Assembly (NCBI GenBank): GCA_913061235.1
Contig: CAJXTB010000003.1
Span: forward strand, 248,001 to 312,000
Source: an uncultured Pseudomonadota bacterium
GTDB lineage: Bacteria; Myxococcota_A; UBA796; GCA-2862545
DNA length: 64,000 nucleotides
Direction of reading: 5' to 3'
A program made the position numbers and the translations under genes. Shown one piece after another: positions 24,976 to 34,562 of this stretch (positions are counted from its first letter, which is position 1; every line of letters begins with the position of its first letter). Below the pieces are notes generated by a model that was given only the letters and a program-made list of their open reading frames with translations, made no database searches and was not told the origin of the DNA.

Positions 24976-25014
24976 GTGTATCGGTTACGGATCACTTCCA
25001 CTCAGGAGGCCCTT

Positions 25015-25728
25015 ATGTGGCTGATTGCGCTAACGACCTTCGCCTTCGCTGACGCTCCGACCGTAGACGGTGACGCCCTACGGCGAGCCACCGAGTTGCC
25101 CATTTCCGCGGCACGCGTGCGGGAACTCGGTACATCGACGGACCAAGTCCGGGAGGCTCTACAAGCATCCAGAACCAGCGATGCGGACCCAGGTGACACC
25201 GCCGACATGTTCAAGGAAACAGCCGATGCTGTCGAAGAACATGGTCCTGTCGACAACTTCGGCTCGTTCGTACGAGAACGCCTCTCTGAAGGTTTGCGCG
25301 GGCGTGAGCTCGCCGCATCGATTCGGGCGGAACACCAGGCCCATGGCAAAGGTCGCCCTGACCATGCTGGGGCTGGCGGCCGAGGCCACTCCACAGACGG
25401 CGCGCAGCCTGGAGGAGCACGCGGTTCGGAGACACAGGACCGCGCCCAATCAGGCGGGCGCGCTGATGGGGCACACGGTTCACCGCAAGCAGGGGGTGCC
25501 CATTCAGGCGGACGCCCAGACTCTGCAGGGGGTGCCCAATCAGGCGGGCGCCCAGACTCTGCAGGCGGTCCCCAATCAGGTGGGCGTCAATCCGGTGACA
25601 CTCCCGCACATGGCGATTCTACCCACGAGCGCCCAACTCCCACCACCGAGGGGACAGAGTCGGGCAGCACGCAATCCACAGAACGGGGCCGCGGCATGAC
25701 GCGTCCAGAACGAGGTAACAACCGATGA
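25015..25728 (+). CDS. Secreted protein with Gly/Ser/Gln/Arg low-complexity C-terminus
   Basis: The protein has 237 residues. The ATG follows a perfect AGGAGG (25004-25009). A short signal peptide (MWLIALTTFAFA-DAP) is followed by about 100 residues of acidic helical sequence and then a disordered tail rich in G, S, Q, H and R. The tail contains a 12-residue tandem repeat (GGAQSGGRPDSA) encoded by a 36-nt DNA repeat near 25496-25570. No family is recognised. The stop overlaps the next gene by four bases (ATGA), so the two are probably co-translated. Confidence 0.6.
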   Translation: MWLIALTTFAFADAPTVDGDALRRATELPISAARVRELGTSTDQVREALQASRTSDADPGDTADMFKETADAVEEHGPVDNFGSFVRERLSEGLRGRELAASIRAEHQAHGKGRPDHAGAGGRGHSTDGAQPGGARGSETQDRAQSGGRADGAHGSPQAGGAHSGGRPDSAGGAQSGGRPDSAGGPQSGGRQSGDTPAHGDSTHERPTPTTEGTESGSTQSTERGRGMTRPERGNNR

Positions 25729-26324: not shown

Positions 26325-26342
26325 CCATTGACGAGTCAATAG
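26325..26342. promoter_or_regulatory. Palindromic site CTATTGAC-NN-GTCAATGG (copy 1)
   Basis: Read on the minus strand, CTATTGAC-TC-GTCAATGG lies 23 bp upstream of the HTH gene start and about 20 bp downstream of its TATAAT box. The core ATTGAC-N2-GTCAAT is a perfect inverted repeat. An identical site apart from the two central bases occurs at 28490-28507. Position downstream of a -10 box suits a repressor operator. Confidence 0.6.
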
Positions 26343-26362: not shown

Positions 26363-26392
26363 ATTATAGTACCGAAAACTCGGAGATGTCAT
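26363..26392 (-). promoter_or_regulatory. Sigma-70-like promoter for the HTH gene
   Basis: On the minus strand, ATGACA (26392-26387) and a perfect TATAAT (26368-26363) are separated by 18 bp. The -35 box overlaps the start codon of the divergent lipoprotein gene at 26391, so the two genes may interfere with each other. Confidence 0.45.
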
Positions 26393-28281: not shown

Positions 28282-28593
28282 GGGAAGGAAGGGGGGTAGA
28301 TCGGAGGGAGGTACGCAAGCGCACCCATTTGGAAGGAATTCCGCAGAAGTGAGACGTCGAAAACCGTTGGGGGAATGGGAAGGTTGCTCCCGAGCCCTGG
28401 CAAGGCACAACAACAATAGCGGAGCCTCGCGATCACGCAAGGGTAAATGTACAGATCACAGATCTTTTTCATGTAGCGTCGAGGCCAAACCATTGACTCG
28501 TCAATAGTTCATTATCCGCCGATTTGATCAAAACGTAGATCAGATCTTGGCTTTCGATCAGTCGCTTCTGTGTCGAATGCAATCGGCAGCCAC
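28282..28593. other. Non-coding, AT-richer island with clustered GATC sites
   Basis: This 312-bp gap lies between the hydrolase start and the PpiD terminator. From about 28431 the base composition is visibly more AT-rich than the genes around it. GATC occurs at 28431, 28454, 28461, 28526, 28538, 28543 and 28556, seven times in about 130 bp, and a 10-bp palindrome TTTGATCAAA is at 28523-28532. It also contains copy 2 of the palindromic site. A small minus-strand ORF (28251-28493) is not convincing as a gene. Confidence 0.55.
28490..28507. promoter_or_regulatory. Palindromic site CTATTGAC-NN-GTCAATGG (copy 2)
   Basis: On the minus strand it reads CTATTGAC-GA-GTCAATGG, matching copy 1 at 26325-26342 at 16 of 18 positions, with both differences in the central dinucleotide. 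A GATAAT hexamer lies just upstream on the same strand (28516-28511), again placing the palindrome downstream of a possible -10 box. The next minus-strand gene is the hydrolase. Confidence 0.6.
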
Positions 28594-28623
28594 AAAAAAA
28601 CCGGCATCACAGAATGATGCCGG
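28594..28623 (-). terminator. Rho-independent terminator of the PpiD-like gene
   Basis: On the minus strand a perfect 9-bp stem (CCGGCATCA/TGATGCCGG) with a 5-nt loop is followed by seven T. It lies about 36 bp after the stop codon and is the clearest intrinsic terminator in the window. Confidence 0.92.
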
Positions 28624-30332: not shown

Positions 30333-31361
30333 ATGTTCAGCGCAGTCCTTGGGCTTTTTAGCCAGGATCTCGCGGTAGATCTCGGTACATCCGAGACGCG
30401 AATCCACCAACGTGGCACCGGTCTGGTATGCCGCGAACCTTCCGTGATTGCAGTCCATACGGACCGCAACGGTCACCGTCGTGTGGCCGCTGTTGGCTCG
30501 GAGGCTGTTCCCATGATCGGGCGCACACCCGCCGATCTTCAAGCGGTGCAGCCCGTTCAACATGGGCATGTTGTCGACTTTGAGGTCGCTGAGGCCTTGC
30601 TGACGCATCTGGTCCGTCAAGTCCACGGCCGGAACCAGTGGGTTGCTCCCAAGATGGTCTTGGCCACCCCATGGGGTGCCACGGACATGGAGCGCCGAGC
30701 GCTTCGTGAGAGCTGTGAGACATCGGGGGCACGCGTCGTACACATGGTGGACCGTCCGCTTGCTGCGGCATTCGGAGCCGACCTGCCCGTGGAGAAGGCA
30801 ACCGGCAACTTGGTCGTCGACCTTGGCGCTGGAGAGGCGTCCATCGCGCTGATGTCACTGTGCAAGGTTGTGGCACACCAATCGGTTCCAGGGGGTGGCA
30901 ACGCCGTTGACATCGCCATCATGCGCATGGTGCGCGACCGCTACAACCTAACCATTGGCCGCTCTACCGCAGAGCGCCTGAAGCTAGAGTTGGCCGACGC
31001 CAGCGGACGCGGCGACAAAAAGACCAGTGAAGCCAAGGGACGCTGCGGACTCGCAGGCATTCCTCGCGCCGTCACTGTGACTGGAGCCGACATTGCCGAC
31101 GCGCTGCAGCGTCCAGTCACCTCCCTTGTTCGCGGTATCCGCGCTGTGTTGGACCGCGTCCCCGCCGAGCTGGCCCGGGACGTCGCTGACCACGGGGTTG
31201 TCCTGGTGGGTGGCGGCGCTCGCCTACGAGGCCTCGAACGGGTCCTTCGTGAGGCCACTGGACTTCCGGTGGTTCGCGCAGAACATCCCGAATCGTGCGT
31301 CATTCACGGTGCCGGACGCATTCTCGACGAGCTCGATCTGCTGGACGCCGTTGCATGCTGA
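30333..31361 (+). CDS. mreB: Rod shape-determining actin homolog MreB (divergent)
   Basis: The protein has 342 residues, normal MreB length (about 345). Actin-fold landmarks are DLAVDLGTSETRI at the N-terminus, REPSVIAVHTD, VDFEVAEALLTHLVRQV, VVDLGAGEASIALMSL, VPGGGNAVDIAIMRM and VLVGGGARLRGLERVL near the C-terminus. The phosphate-2 loop has GAGEAS where canonical MreB has GGGTTE, and phosphate-1 has GTSET in place of GTANT, so nucleotide handling may be changed. It would form membrane filaments guiding side-wall peptidoglycan synthesis. It is first in mreB-mreC-mreD-mrdA-rodA, with its stop overlapping mreC. Confidence 0.9.
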   Translation: MFSAVLGLFSQDLAVDLGTSETRIHQRGTGLVCREPSVIAVHTDRNGHRRVAAVGSEAVPMIGRTPADLQAVQPVQHGHVVDFEVAEALLTHLVRQVHGRNQWVAPKMVLATPWGATDMERRALRESCETSGARVVHMVDRPLAAAFGADLPVEKATGNLVVDLGAGEASIALMSLCKVVAHQSVPGGGNAVDIAIMRMVRDRYNLTIGRSTAERLKLELADASGRGDKKTSEAKGRCGLAGIPRAVTVTGADIADALQRPVTSLVRGIRAVLDRVPAELARDVADHGVVLVGGGARLRGLERVLREATGLPVVRAEHPESCVIHGAGRILDELDLLDAVAC

Positions 31362-32257
31362 ACCCAAAGCGGACGTTCACACCACGCAAGCCGGGATTCA
31401 CGCCGGCCCCCCTGCCCCTGCGTCGTAAACCTACGCTTGTGCCTGTTGAGGAGCCCACACCGACCCGTCGCTTCACGGTGCTTCGACGAGCCCTCGCATT
31501 CGCTCTGGTCGTCGGCCTCTCGGTCGCTGTCGTTGCGTCCGCAAGCGGAACCCAAGCCTTCAAGTCGGCCACCGCAGGCGCACAAGAGTGGTTCGCGGTC
31601 CAGTCCGCAACCGCCGTCCAAGGGTGGGACCGTCATCTGGCCCAAGGCAAAGTGGTCGACCAGCTCGCTGCGATGACGCGTGAGCGAGACGCCCTTGCGC
31701 TTGAGGTCATGGAGCTACGCGCCGTTCAGCGCGAACACGGCCGTCTTGTCACCCTGTTGGACATGGCTGAAGGCCAAGGGCTCACCGGTGTGGCCGGACG
31801 GGTCATCGCTCGCCCCACAACCGGACGGGCCACCCTGCGCATCGACTCTGGCAGTGTTGTCGGCGTGGCGCTTGGCCAAGCGGTCGTCGCACACGATGGC
31901 CTCATTGGACAAGTCGTGGACGTTGGCCCCGAGTGGGCCGATGTTCTGCTCGCACGCGACCCACTGCACAGCGCGGCTGTTGTTGTGGAAGGCACCGAGG
32001 TTCACGGAACTCTACGCGGTACCGGCACTGACTTGCTCGTTGACCACGTTATTGCCGGCACCGACGTCCAACCTGGCGCTATCGTGCTCACAAGCGGAGA
32101 AGGCGACGTCTTCCCGATTGGAATCACCGTCGGAACGGTCGAGTACGTCTCCCGGTCTACCGGTCCACTTCTGCACATTGAAGTGACGCCAGCCTCGCGT
32201 CCGGCGCTACTGGCCGAAGTGTTCGTGGTTCGCCACCAACAGGCGCCAGAGCTGTGA
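31355..32257 (+). CDS. mreC: Rod shape-determining protein MreC
   Basis: The protein has 300 residues. A basic cytoplasmic tail is followed by one membrane helix (ALAFALVVGLSVAVVASAS), a coiled coil (QLAAMTRERDALALEVMEL) and the MreC beta domain (GRVIARPTTGRATLRIDSG, VGVALGQAVVAHDGLIGQV, LLVDHVIAG, VLTSGEGDVFPIGITVG). This matches the family throughout. It links MreB filaments to periplasmic PBP2 in the elongasome. The ATG overlaps the mreB stop by 7 bp, and mreD starts at its stop (GTGA). Confidence 0.93.
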   Translation: MLNPKRTFTPRKPGFTPAPLPLRRKPTLVPVEEPTPTRRFTVLRRALAFALVVGLSVAVVASASGTQAFKSATAGAQEWFAVQSATAVQGWDRHLAQGKVVDQLAAMTRERDALALEVMELRAVQREHGRLVTLLDMAEGQGLTGVAGRVIARPTTGRATLRIDSGSVVGVALGQAVVAHDGLIGQVVDVGPEWADVLLARDPLHSAAVVVEGTEVHGTLRGTGTDLLVDHVIAGTDVQPGAIVLTSGEGDVFPIGITVGTVEYVSRSTGPLLHIEVTPASRPALLAEVFVVRHQQAPEL

Positions 32258-32694
32258 TTCTCGGCGCTGCCCTCGCCGCACTTGCTTGGCTCGTCGCATC
32301 GGCGTCGGGACTCCCCATCGATCCGTTCCTACCTGTGGTTATCGCCCTTGGTCTACACCGTGAGTGGCCCAACTGGGCACGCGTTGTCCTCGCCATTGCG
32401 TTGGCCCCTCTCGCCGCAGCCGCCTGCGGAGATGTCGCAGCAGAGCGGGTTGCGGTCTACGCTGTAGCGGTGATGGGCTCGGTCAATCTGTCCGACTGGT
32501 TCGACGACGGTGTCGTCACCCGAACAGGGTTCGCCGCCTGCGCATTGACCGCTGTGTTGGTCGTGCGCGAGGTCATGCACTGGGCTGGCTCCATGCCACA
32601 GGGCAGTGACTCGCTCGTGTCCATCGCCGCGACCGTTGCATGGGTCGCTATCCACGCAGCCCTGTGCCTAGTGCTTGCTCGGAGGCGGCCATGA
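32254..32694 (+). CDS. mreD: MreD-like membrane protein
   Basis: The product has 146 residues with GTG start overlapping mreC's stop. It is a small polytopic membrane protein with four or five hydrophobic helices, and sequence similarity to MreD is weak, as is normal for that family. The call rests mainly on size, topology and position between mreC and mrdA. Its stop overlaps the mrdA ATG. Confidence 0.8.
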   Translation: MILGAALAALAWLVASASGLPIDPFLPVVIALGLHREWPNWARVVLAIALAPLAAAACGDVAAERVAVYAVAVMGSVNLSDWFDDGVVTRTGFAACALTAVLVVREVMHWAGSMPQGSDSLVSIAATVAWVAIHAALCLVLARRRP

Positions 32695-34562
32695 ACACGA
32701 TTGGAACCAGGCTTCCGTGGTTAGCAGGCATCATGGTTCTCGGATTTGTCGCCCTACAAGCGCGACTCGCCACGCTGCACTTGGACGCATCCGTCTCTGC
32801 CGTCGCGGTCGACAATGCGCTGAGCACCCGCCGACTCGATGCCCCACGCGGCCGAATCCTAGACCGCCGTGGCGAGATTCTCGCAGACGTCCGCCCGACC
32901 ATCGATCTACGAATTCGTCCTCACTATGTTGAGGACACCGAAGCTCTGCGTCTCACCCTGATGCCACGCCTGTCCGAGGCAGAGCTCGAGCGCTACGACG
33001 ACGCCATGCTCTCTGAAGGCTGGGACAGACGACGCGCATGGGTCATTGCACCCGACGTAGACCGGGCGACGCGCGCTTGGGTCTCTGGCAACCGCCCATT
33101 CTTAGCGGGCGTTGACTTGGGTGCCTCGCAACAGCGCGAATACCCCCTCGGCGGAATCGCCCCTCACGCGATTGGCTACGTCGCAGAAGTGACCGGGGAC
33201 GACCTTCTTCGCCTGGACCGCAGCCGATACCGTGCCGGGGATTACACCGGTCGCCAGGGTATTGAACGGCTCTTAGAAGATGAGCTCCGAGGCGTACCCG
33301 GCATTGATGCCACGCTCACCACATCTGTCGGGGGCCGGGCTCGCGGCTCTGGGCCGTGGTTTGACCGCCTCACCACGCTGGCCAACAACTGGGACGTGCC
33401 GGTTCGTGGCGGCGGCGACATCACACTGACTCTCGACCAGAACCTTCAGGCCGTCGCTGAAGCCTCAATGGACGACCGCCGCGGCGCTGTCGTGATGATG
33501 GACATCCACAGTGGTGCAGTGCTCGCCTACGTCTCCAGCCCAGACTTTGAGCCGGGCGAGCTGGTCGACGGGATCAGCCGTTCCCAATGGCGCGGCCTGA
33601 TCGGTGACCCTGCAAATCCGCTGATGGACCGCGTGTCCCGCGGCCTGTACCCACCCGCCTCTACGTTCAAGATGGTGACAGCTGCGGCTGCCCTTGAAGC
33701 CGGCATCTCCGAGAACCACACGGTTCGCTGCACCGGCCGCACCCAGATCGGAAACCGGAGCTTCAAGTGCTGGAAGCGCGGCGGACACGGCATCGTCAAC
33801 CTATCGAGCGCTCTTGCAGGTTCCTGTGACGCTTGGTTTTACGACGTCGGTATCGAGGTAGGCCATGTCGCTATTGCCGACGCCGCTCGTCGACTCGGCT
33901 TTGGCTCCCGGACCGGTCTCGCCCTCAATGGCGAGCGCGCAGGGCTGCTTCCATCCGATTCGTGGATGCGCGAGCGCCACGGAACGCCCTGGACCATGGG
34001 AGACACAGCCAGTGCCGCCATCGGCCAGAGCATCACCCAGACCACGCCACTGCAGCTCGCTGTGATGACGTCGACCATCGCCGCTGGAGGCATGCGTCCG
34101 TCGCCCTACATCGTTGAGTCTGTGACCCGTCCCGACGGCACCACTGCCCGAATTGGCGGCCAGCGGGCGGCTGTTGACTCTGGTTTCTCGCCGGAGATCT
34201 GGGCGGCCATCCAAGCCGGTATGGAGCGTGTGGTTGACCGCGGAACCGGTCGTGGCGTGCGAACCGAGGGACTGCCGATGGCGGGCAAGACGGGCACCGC
34301 ACAGGTGGTCAGCGGCGCGCTCAAGAAACTGCGTCCGGGCTACGACACAGAAGACCACGCATTGTTCGTCGCATATGCCCCGACAGAAGACCCCCAGGTC
34401 GCCATCTCCGTCATTGTTGAGCATGCCGGTGGTGGCAGCACGCACGCAGCGCCTGTCGCACGCGATGTCCTAGTCGCCTGGGCCATTGGCGAAGGTATTC
34501 TACCAGACCCCGAGATTCTGCTGGAAGAAGCAGAGGTTGCAGACGCGGGAGTCCAGCCATGA
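32691..34562 (+). CDS. mrdA: Penicillin-binding protein 2, elongation transpeptidase
   Basis: The protein has 623 residues with GGAGG before the ATG. One membrane helix (LPWLAGIMVLGFVALQARL) is followed by the PBP dimerisation domain (DAPRGRILDRRGEILAD) and the transpeptidase domain with PASTFKMVTA (active Ser), SCDAWFYDVG (SxN-type motif) and MAGKTGTAQ (KTG). It crosslinks peptidoglycan in side-wall growth with RodA and MreC. Stop and start overlap rodA by 4 bp. Confidence 0.95.
   Translation: MNTIGTRLPWLAGIMVLGFVALQARLATLHLDASVSAVAVDNALSTRRLDAPRGRILDRRGEILADVRPTIDLRIRPHYVEDTEALRLTLMPRLSEAELERYDDAMLSEGWDRRRAWVIAPDVDRATRAWVSGNRPFLAGVDLGASQQREYPLGGIAPHAIGYVAEVTGDDLLRLDRSRYRAGDYTGRQGIERLLEDELRGVPGIDATLTTSVGGRARGSGPWFDRLTTLANNWDVPVRGGGDITLTLDQNLQAVAEASMDDRRGAVVMMDIHSGAVLAYVSSPDFEPGELVDGISRSQWRGLIGDPANPLMDRVSRGLYPPASTFKMVTAAAALEAGISENHTVRCTGRTQIGNRSFKCWKRGGHGIVNLSSALAGSCDAWFYDVGIEVGHVAIADAARRLGFGSRTGLALNGERAGLLPSDSWMRERHGTPWTMGDTASAAIGQSITQTTPLQLAVMTSTIAAGGMRPSPYIVESVTRPDGTTARIGGQRAAVDSGFSPEIWAAIQAGMERVVDRGTGRGVRTEGLPMAGKTGTAQVVSGALKKLRPGYDTEDHALFVAYAPTEDPQVAISVIVEHAGGGSTHAAPVARDVLVAWAIGEGILPDPEILLEEAEVADAGVQP

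Follow-up and report, generated by a model that had tools for sequence, protein, structure and literature searches.

A putative autoregulatory helix-turn-helix protein with predicted palindromic operators at its own gene and at a lipase-like gene

Two nearly identical 18-bp palindromes occur in the 64,000-nucleotide stretch of DNA analysed here (hereafter the window), one upstream of a gene for a 92-residue helix-turn-helix (HTH) protein (P0001; 26024..26302, minus strand) and one upstream of a gene for an alpha/beta-hydrolase-fold protein (P0002; 27178..28281, minus strand, start codon inferred). It is very probable that both palindromes are operators of the HTH protein, which, from the conservation of sequence around the two genes, is predicted to be a regulator repressing its own gene and that of its lipase-like neighbour. 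The arrangement looks like a real and previously unnamed self-controlling gene switch; our search of the open-access literature brought up no publication describing a protein or operator of this kind, while the 12-mer core of the site (below) turned up in three papers, one of them on BetI1 (PMC12442346).

Operator 1, at the HTH gene (26325..26342, minus strand), and operator 2, at the hydrolase gene (28490..28507, minus strand), both read CTATTGAC-NN-GTCAATGG. All 16 non-central bases are identical and the difference is limited to the two central ones, which confirms the pair and the coordinates given for it in a preliminary description of this DNA. Each site contains the 12-mer core TTGACNNGTCAA (26328-26339 and 28493-28504). 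As a palindrome the 18-mer is imperfect, since its 14-bp core ATTGACNNGTCAAT is perfect and one of the two outer pairs fails. Allowing up to three mismatches yielded four strand-matches in the window (two places on both strands), against a mean of 0.21 in shuffled sequences and with none of 100 shuffles reaching four. At up to two mismatches the core pattern matched twice, a count also reached by 35 of the shuffles, so that the strength of the signal within the window lies in its exactness.

The preliminary description had suggested a genome-wide scan for the palindrome as a check. The exact 14-mer core occurs at three places in the 7,175,764-base (7.18 Mb) genome, where 0.107 would be expected from base composition, and two of these are the operators described here, 2.2 kb apart. 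The third (G000:C1:584886) lies within a predicted ORF and may be a chance occurrence. With up to one mismatch, the 14-mer was found at 17 places genome-wide versus two for the same pattern read backwards. The 12-mer showed no overall enrichment in the host genome (11 occurrences versus nine for the control palindrome ATGACNNGTCAT). We therefore rejected the host 12-mer total as proof and built the case on footprints instead.

A hexamer resembling a −10 box precedes each palindrome on the same strand, as had been described, at a spacing that the two sites do not share: TATAAT (26368-26363) is 20 bp from operator 1, and GATAAT (28511..28516, minus strand, read 28516-28511), assigned from sequence and from the matching window in relatives, stands directly before operator 2 at 3 bp. 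The HTH start codon (26302) was said to be 23 bp from operator 1; the site is indeed just upstream, with a measured gap of 22 bp. The HTH gene has a promoter-like sequence, ATGACA-18 bp-TATAAT (26363..26392, minus strand; 11/12), which is a weak match by itself because shuffles average 0.6. If transcription starts seven bases after the −10 box, operator 1 would fall just downstream of this promoter, at about +14 to +31. A terminator-like hairpin of the upstream gene (28601..28623, minus strand), from a scan that itself did not rise above shuffles, would isolate the hydrolase promoter region.

The divergent lipoprotein-like gene (P0003; 26391..26987, plus strand) had also been put forward as a target. 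This suggestion is unsupported, as a P0003 homologue was found next to the HTH gene in none of the 85 relative loci, and the HTH promoter is the sole promoter-like match between 25900 and 28700. Elsewhere in the window, the ORF at 24976-25728 contains a tandem repeat (25489-25586) of 2.7 copies of a 36-bp unit with 91% matches, and adjacent plus-strand genes at 30333-34562 are, judged by eye, what we take to be the rod-shape set MreB, MreC, MreD and PBP2.

Orthologues of P0001 were found in 52 of the 93 relatives searched. All belong to the same order, where they occur in 52 of 63 genomes, mostly once per genome, and none was found in the 30 relatives outside the order. Among orthologues with at least 400 bp available upstream, 46 of 50 have TTGACNNGTCAA within those 400 bp when a single mismatch is allowed, 45 of them exactly, compared with 0/50 for the backwards pattern and 0.3% of 1000 dinucleotide shuffles. 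The site is missing between −400 and +60 in four of the 52 orthologues (L011, L012, L018 and L069), and for the two from G004 and G005 it lies instead before the same-strand hydrolase gene upstream.

In a second phylum, too, the palindrome accompanies the gene. We scanned 84,980 species, each represented by one genome, only for loci with the peptide pattern RQWKN[TAS]FG and obtained 65, including 15 in Planctomycetota. The Planctomycetota proteins are 45-56% identical to P0001, and all 15 genes have a one-mismatch palindrome upstream, none of them exact. The remaining 50 loci are in records labelled Proteobacteria, Deltaproteobacteria, Myxococcota and similar, a few carrying other labels that are probably wrong; they mostly repeat genomes of the 93-relative search and were left out of the counts, as was L072, a fragment of 40 residues from the end of a contig. 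The HTH gene of the order also appears in records that have Bifidobacterium breve, Klebsiella pneumoniae or Rhodobacterales as their title (L120, L130, L135, L147, L154 and L116), and these look mislabelled. The HTH gene thus has in its own promoter the conserved palindromic operator that characterises an autoregulatory repressor, and the footprints in the two groups strongly support the predicted self-regulation.

Control of the hydrolase gene, which had likewise been proposed, is strongly supported by a footprint of the same kind. Hydrolase homologues (E ≤1e-30) were present in 52 of the 93 genomes, 51 of them in the order. Their gene usually adjoins the HTH gene in the family of the host genome and usually lies away from it in other families, where the site is still kept. 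Where the upstream sequence extended to at least 400 bp, a palindrome with at most one mismatch preceded 46 of 48 homologues (exact in 19, one base off in 27), against none for the backwards pattern and 1.0% in shuffles; L276 and L296 were dropped for too short an upstream region, and two of the 52 matches cut by contig ends (G033:C334 and G017:C108) are outside this count. The two hydrolase genes lacking the site are from G001 and G066, both genomes in which the HTH gene was not found. G001 is a member of the order with no HTH match and no genomic copy of the 12-mer, while G066 falls outside the order. These two genomes are the best natural control that we found.

The position of the palindrome relative to promoter boxes is conserved as well. 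In 24 of 48 HTH promoters of relatives, the distance from the start of the palindrome to a TANNNT hexamer is exactly 22 bases, and this TTGACN-16 bp-TANNNT spacing indicates that the −35 box lies within the palindrome. Among the Planctomycetota HTH promoters, 12/15 have one palindrome on the −35 box and a second one, in the start region, 31-33 bp further on. The host window differs from its relatives in that operator 1 is not the −35 box. Of 46 hydrolase promoters, 23 have an extended −10 element (TGNTA) immediately before the palindrome, whereas each of 17 slid windows gave none, so the site covers the transcription start region. These conserved positions fit repression. The HTH protein would shut its own gene by covering the −35 box in most relatives, and here probably by sitting a short way downstream of the start site. 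At the lipase-like gene it would repress by occupying the region where transcription starts. We think it unlikely that the protein acts on these sites as an activator or dual regulator: region 4 of sigma70 is a usual contact of activators, and the distance to the start codon is 100-350 bp for some sites, yet occupation of the −35 box or of the region after the −10 box, at the frequencies just given, would block polymerase.

There is little likelihood that the palindrome belongs to another regulator, such as a TetR protein of the BetI kind, with the HTH gene as just one of its targets. In Ruegeria pomeroyi, the site bound by BetI1 over a −35 box is ATTGACGCGTCAAT, a perfect palindrome that matches a betI box (PMC12442346), and a TetR-family regulator gene has our palindrome upstream in two related species (L081 and L083, in G011 and G020). 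Nevertheless, none of ten genomes searched holds a protein above the cut-off of the BetI model, none of the four intergenic 12-mer sites of the host precedes a TetR gene, and the site tracks the HTH gene in two phyla. G001 is again instructive, as its hydrolase gene has no site and its HTH gene was not found, yet the genome has nine TetR-like matches to the BetI model. Since the palindrome stands before the TetR gene in G011 and G020, the HTH protein may control another regulator in these two genomes.

The number and placement of sites in whole genomes bear on how far the predicted regulon extends. The 63 genomes of the order contain 1008 copies of the 12-mer in total versus 41 of the control palindrome, and the 30 genomes outside the order contain 41 versus 31. 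In the host genome, 7/11 copies are inside genes and 4/11 are intergenic, the latter being operators 1 and 2, one site before a class-III aminotransferase gene and one in the gap separating a divergent gene pair. In G011 and G020, a site is likewise present at the aminotransferase gene or at its divergent HNH neighbour. No 12-mer was found in four genomes of the order: G001, G006 and G019, in which the HTH gene was not found, and G010, in which it is present. Eight genomes of the order have sites and no HTH match, an absence that we ascribe, without proof, to incomplete assemblies.

In ten sampled genomes of the order, 72 of the 125 listed sites are intergenic, ranging from 9/9 in G011 and 8/9 in G020 to 1/7 in G058. 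The sample covered 28 of 44 sites in G018, 21 of 25 in G033, 7 of 9 in G040 and a handful of those in G056 and G058, with two G058 sites counted twice through overlapping loci. Copy numbers of the 12-mer are exceptional in G058 (293), G056 (66) and G018 (44; loci L174, L177, L178 and L187 exemplify these genomes). Two G058 copies fall within successive repeats of a single long ORF rich in cysteine and aspartate, and the sequence around one G056 copy recurs identically on two contigs. G024 and G033, two species that belong to the same genus, both have the palindrome inside a 206-residue ORF at offset 222 (L238 and L252), and this intragenic site may be under selection.

Nine Planctomycetota genomes, searched with a slightly looser pattern, had 38-166 forward matches each versus 0-4 for the control, and the matches are dispersed. 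In the Planctomycetota genome G101, 13/25 sites are intergenic and 12/25 intragenic, in a sequence of which about 12% is non-coding; the genes preceded by a site include those for RtcB, arginine decarboxylase, a class-II tRNA synthetase and a sigma factor. A mixed sample of nine Planctomycetota genomes had 5/19 sites in intergenic regions. A broad regulon in Planctomycetota is likely from these patterns, and the HTH protein probably serves many more promoters in the relatives, above all in this phylum. The dispersed matches in Planctomycetota, the intragenic sites of G101 and the high copy number of G058 might also suggest a protein that mainly organises the chromosome or binds throughout the genome, with promoter sites as a subset. 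This seems quite improbable given the intergenic share in G101 relative to its non-coding fraction, the almost exclusively intergenic sites of G011 and G020, and the location of some G058 copies in repeated coding units. An RNA hairpin in transcript leaders is most implausible, for although operator 1 is probably within a transcribed leader here, the palindrome is the −35 box in most relatives and so is untranscribed from the HTH promoter, and a stem of 5-6 bp with a two-base loop appears, by inspection, too tight to fold.

The partner gene encodes a lipase-like protein. P0002 matches Pfam Hydrolase_4 (2.8e-15), and its model (pLDDT 87) resembles gastric lipase in Foldseek (E 1.5e-19), which places it in the alpha/beta hydrolase fold. 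The G-X-S-X-G motif is absent, the nucleophilic serine being replaced by Gly164 in a GHGLG elbow. The catalytic serine is Gly or Ala in 47/50 aligned homologues and Ser in 3/50, and the acid D304 and H335 are conserved. P0002 is thus, as predicted from its alignment, a conserved pseudo-hydrolase. We speculate that this serine-less partner could help to sense a lipid-like signal for a regulator without a ligand domain.

The HTH protein itself is difficult to place by similarity. Neither Pfam nor NCBIfam gave its family a match that passed the cut-off: the best Pfam resemblance, HTH_28 (PF13518; residues 30-57), scores 24.5 against a gathering cut-off of 25 bits, and Sigma70_r4 (residues 31-51) scores 16.4 against 24.1 bits. 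No Pfam match to sigma region 2 or to a TetR_N domain was found in P0001. Foldseek searches with the structural model gave only generic HTH folds (best E about 1), as did a VIA structural search (best Z 5.4, to DosR), which excluded no family. Against Escherichia coli sigma70 (6oul_L), the model aligned over 42 residues with a Z of 4.3 and an rmsd of 3.3, tied with homeodomains and resolvases. We rejected a phage origin, with no match in 50,697 phage records and a weak one in PHROGs (E 0.015).

The conserved residues of the protein nevertheless offer a clue to how the site may be read. The model has helices at 35-42 and 46-56, and the third helix (46-56, pLDDT about 90) carries the stretch VSRERVRQWKN (V44-S45-R46-E47-R48-x-R50-Q51-W52-K53-N54, where x is V or I), which is near-invariant across 36 aligned sequences from both phyla. 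The heptapeptide SRERVRQ is common to P0001 and three sigma factors of the host genome, and sigma region 4 ranks top, weakly (E 0.015), when the family profile is compared with PDB sequences. In sigma70 region 4.2, R584 and E585 contact the −35 box at positions −31 and −33, the latter also being influenced by R588 (PMC2613000), and R584, E585 and Q589 are named as −35-recognising residues (PMC8407463). R46, E47, R50 and Q51 of P0001, all invariant, correspond in the same frame to R584, E585, R588 and Q589. Because the recognition helix thus has the sigma70 residues that read TTGAC, the operator resembles a pair of −35 boxes in inverted orientation.

The symmetry of the operator suggests that the inverted boxes would be read by an HTH dimer. 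The HTH protein is most likely a dimer on DNA, with each helix-turn-helix reading one TTGAC half-site and an expected binding motif of TTGACRYGTCAA; binding, dimerisation, repression and competition with sigma are steps that we infer. The variation among sites bears on this reading. In 24 of the 27 one-mismatch hydrolase sites it is the fourth half-site base that varies, which falls between the bases read by sigma70 R584 and E585. Start-region sites of Planctomycetota have an altered third base in one half (TTTAC), which counts against a strictly sigma70-like reading in view of the sigma70 contact at −33. We tentatively propose that P0001 belongs to an unnamed family of stand-alone proteins resembling sigma region 4.2, present in one order and in Planctomycetota, whose members may act as dimeric competitors of sigma70 that read two inverted −35 boxes and shut their own. 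Such proteins might be global regulators in Planctomycetota, with dozens of sites per genome, and in the order might have as their most constant partner target the serine-less lipase-like protein, possibly sensing a signal.

If true, these predictions would assign a regulator, an operator and a core target to a widespread, unstudied family in two phyla for which few regulators are known. They would also provide a clear case of a repressor that reads the same −35 letters as sigma with the same helix residues. The site could be used at once for regulon prediction in these genomes, and the conserved lipase-like protein without a catalytic serine would become a candidate sensor or binding protein.

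Among known systems, region 4 of sigma-70 factors (domain 4 of sigma70/SigA) shares the [ST]RER[IV]RQ helix with P0001, and its −35 box equals the TTGAC half-site. Unlike sigma-70, P0001 is short, has no region 2 or 3 that we could find and scores under the Pfam cut-off for region 4; sigma-70 is a polymerase subunit, whereas P0001 is a predicted repressor whose operator is an inverted pair. The nearest Pfam likeness, just under cut-off, is to the homeodomain-like HTH_28 and HTH_23, a family mostly seen in transposase-like proteins. P0002 has its fold in common with monoacylglycerol, gastric and lysosomal acid lipases and differs from them in that its family largely lacks the catalytic serine. 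BetI-type TetR repressors, represented by BetI1 of Ruegeria pomeroyi, are similar at the DNA level, as practically the same palindrome lies over a −35 box and mediates repression. Unlike P0001, however, BetI1 belongs to the TetR family and has a ligand domain, and no BetI was found in the genomes searched here.
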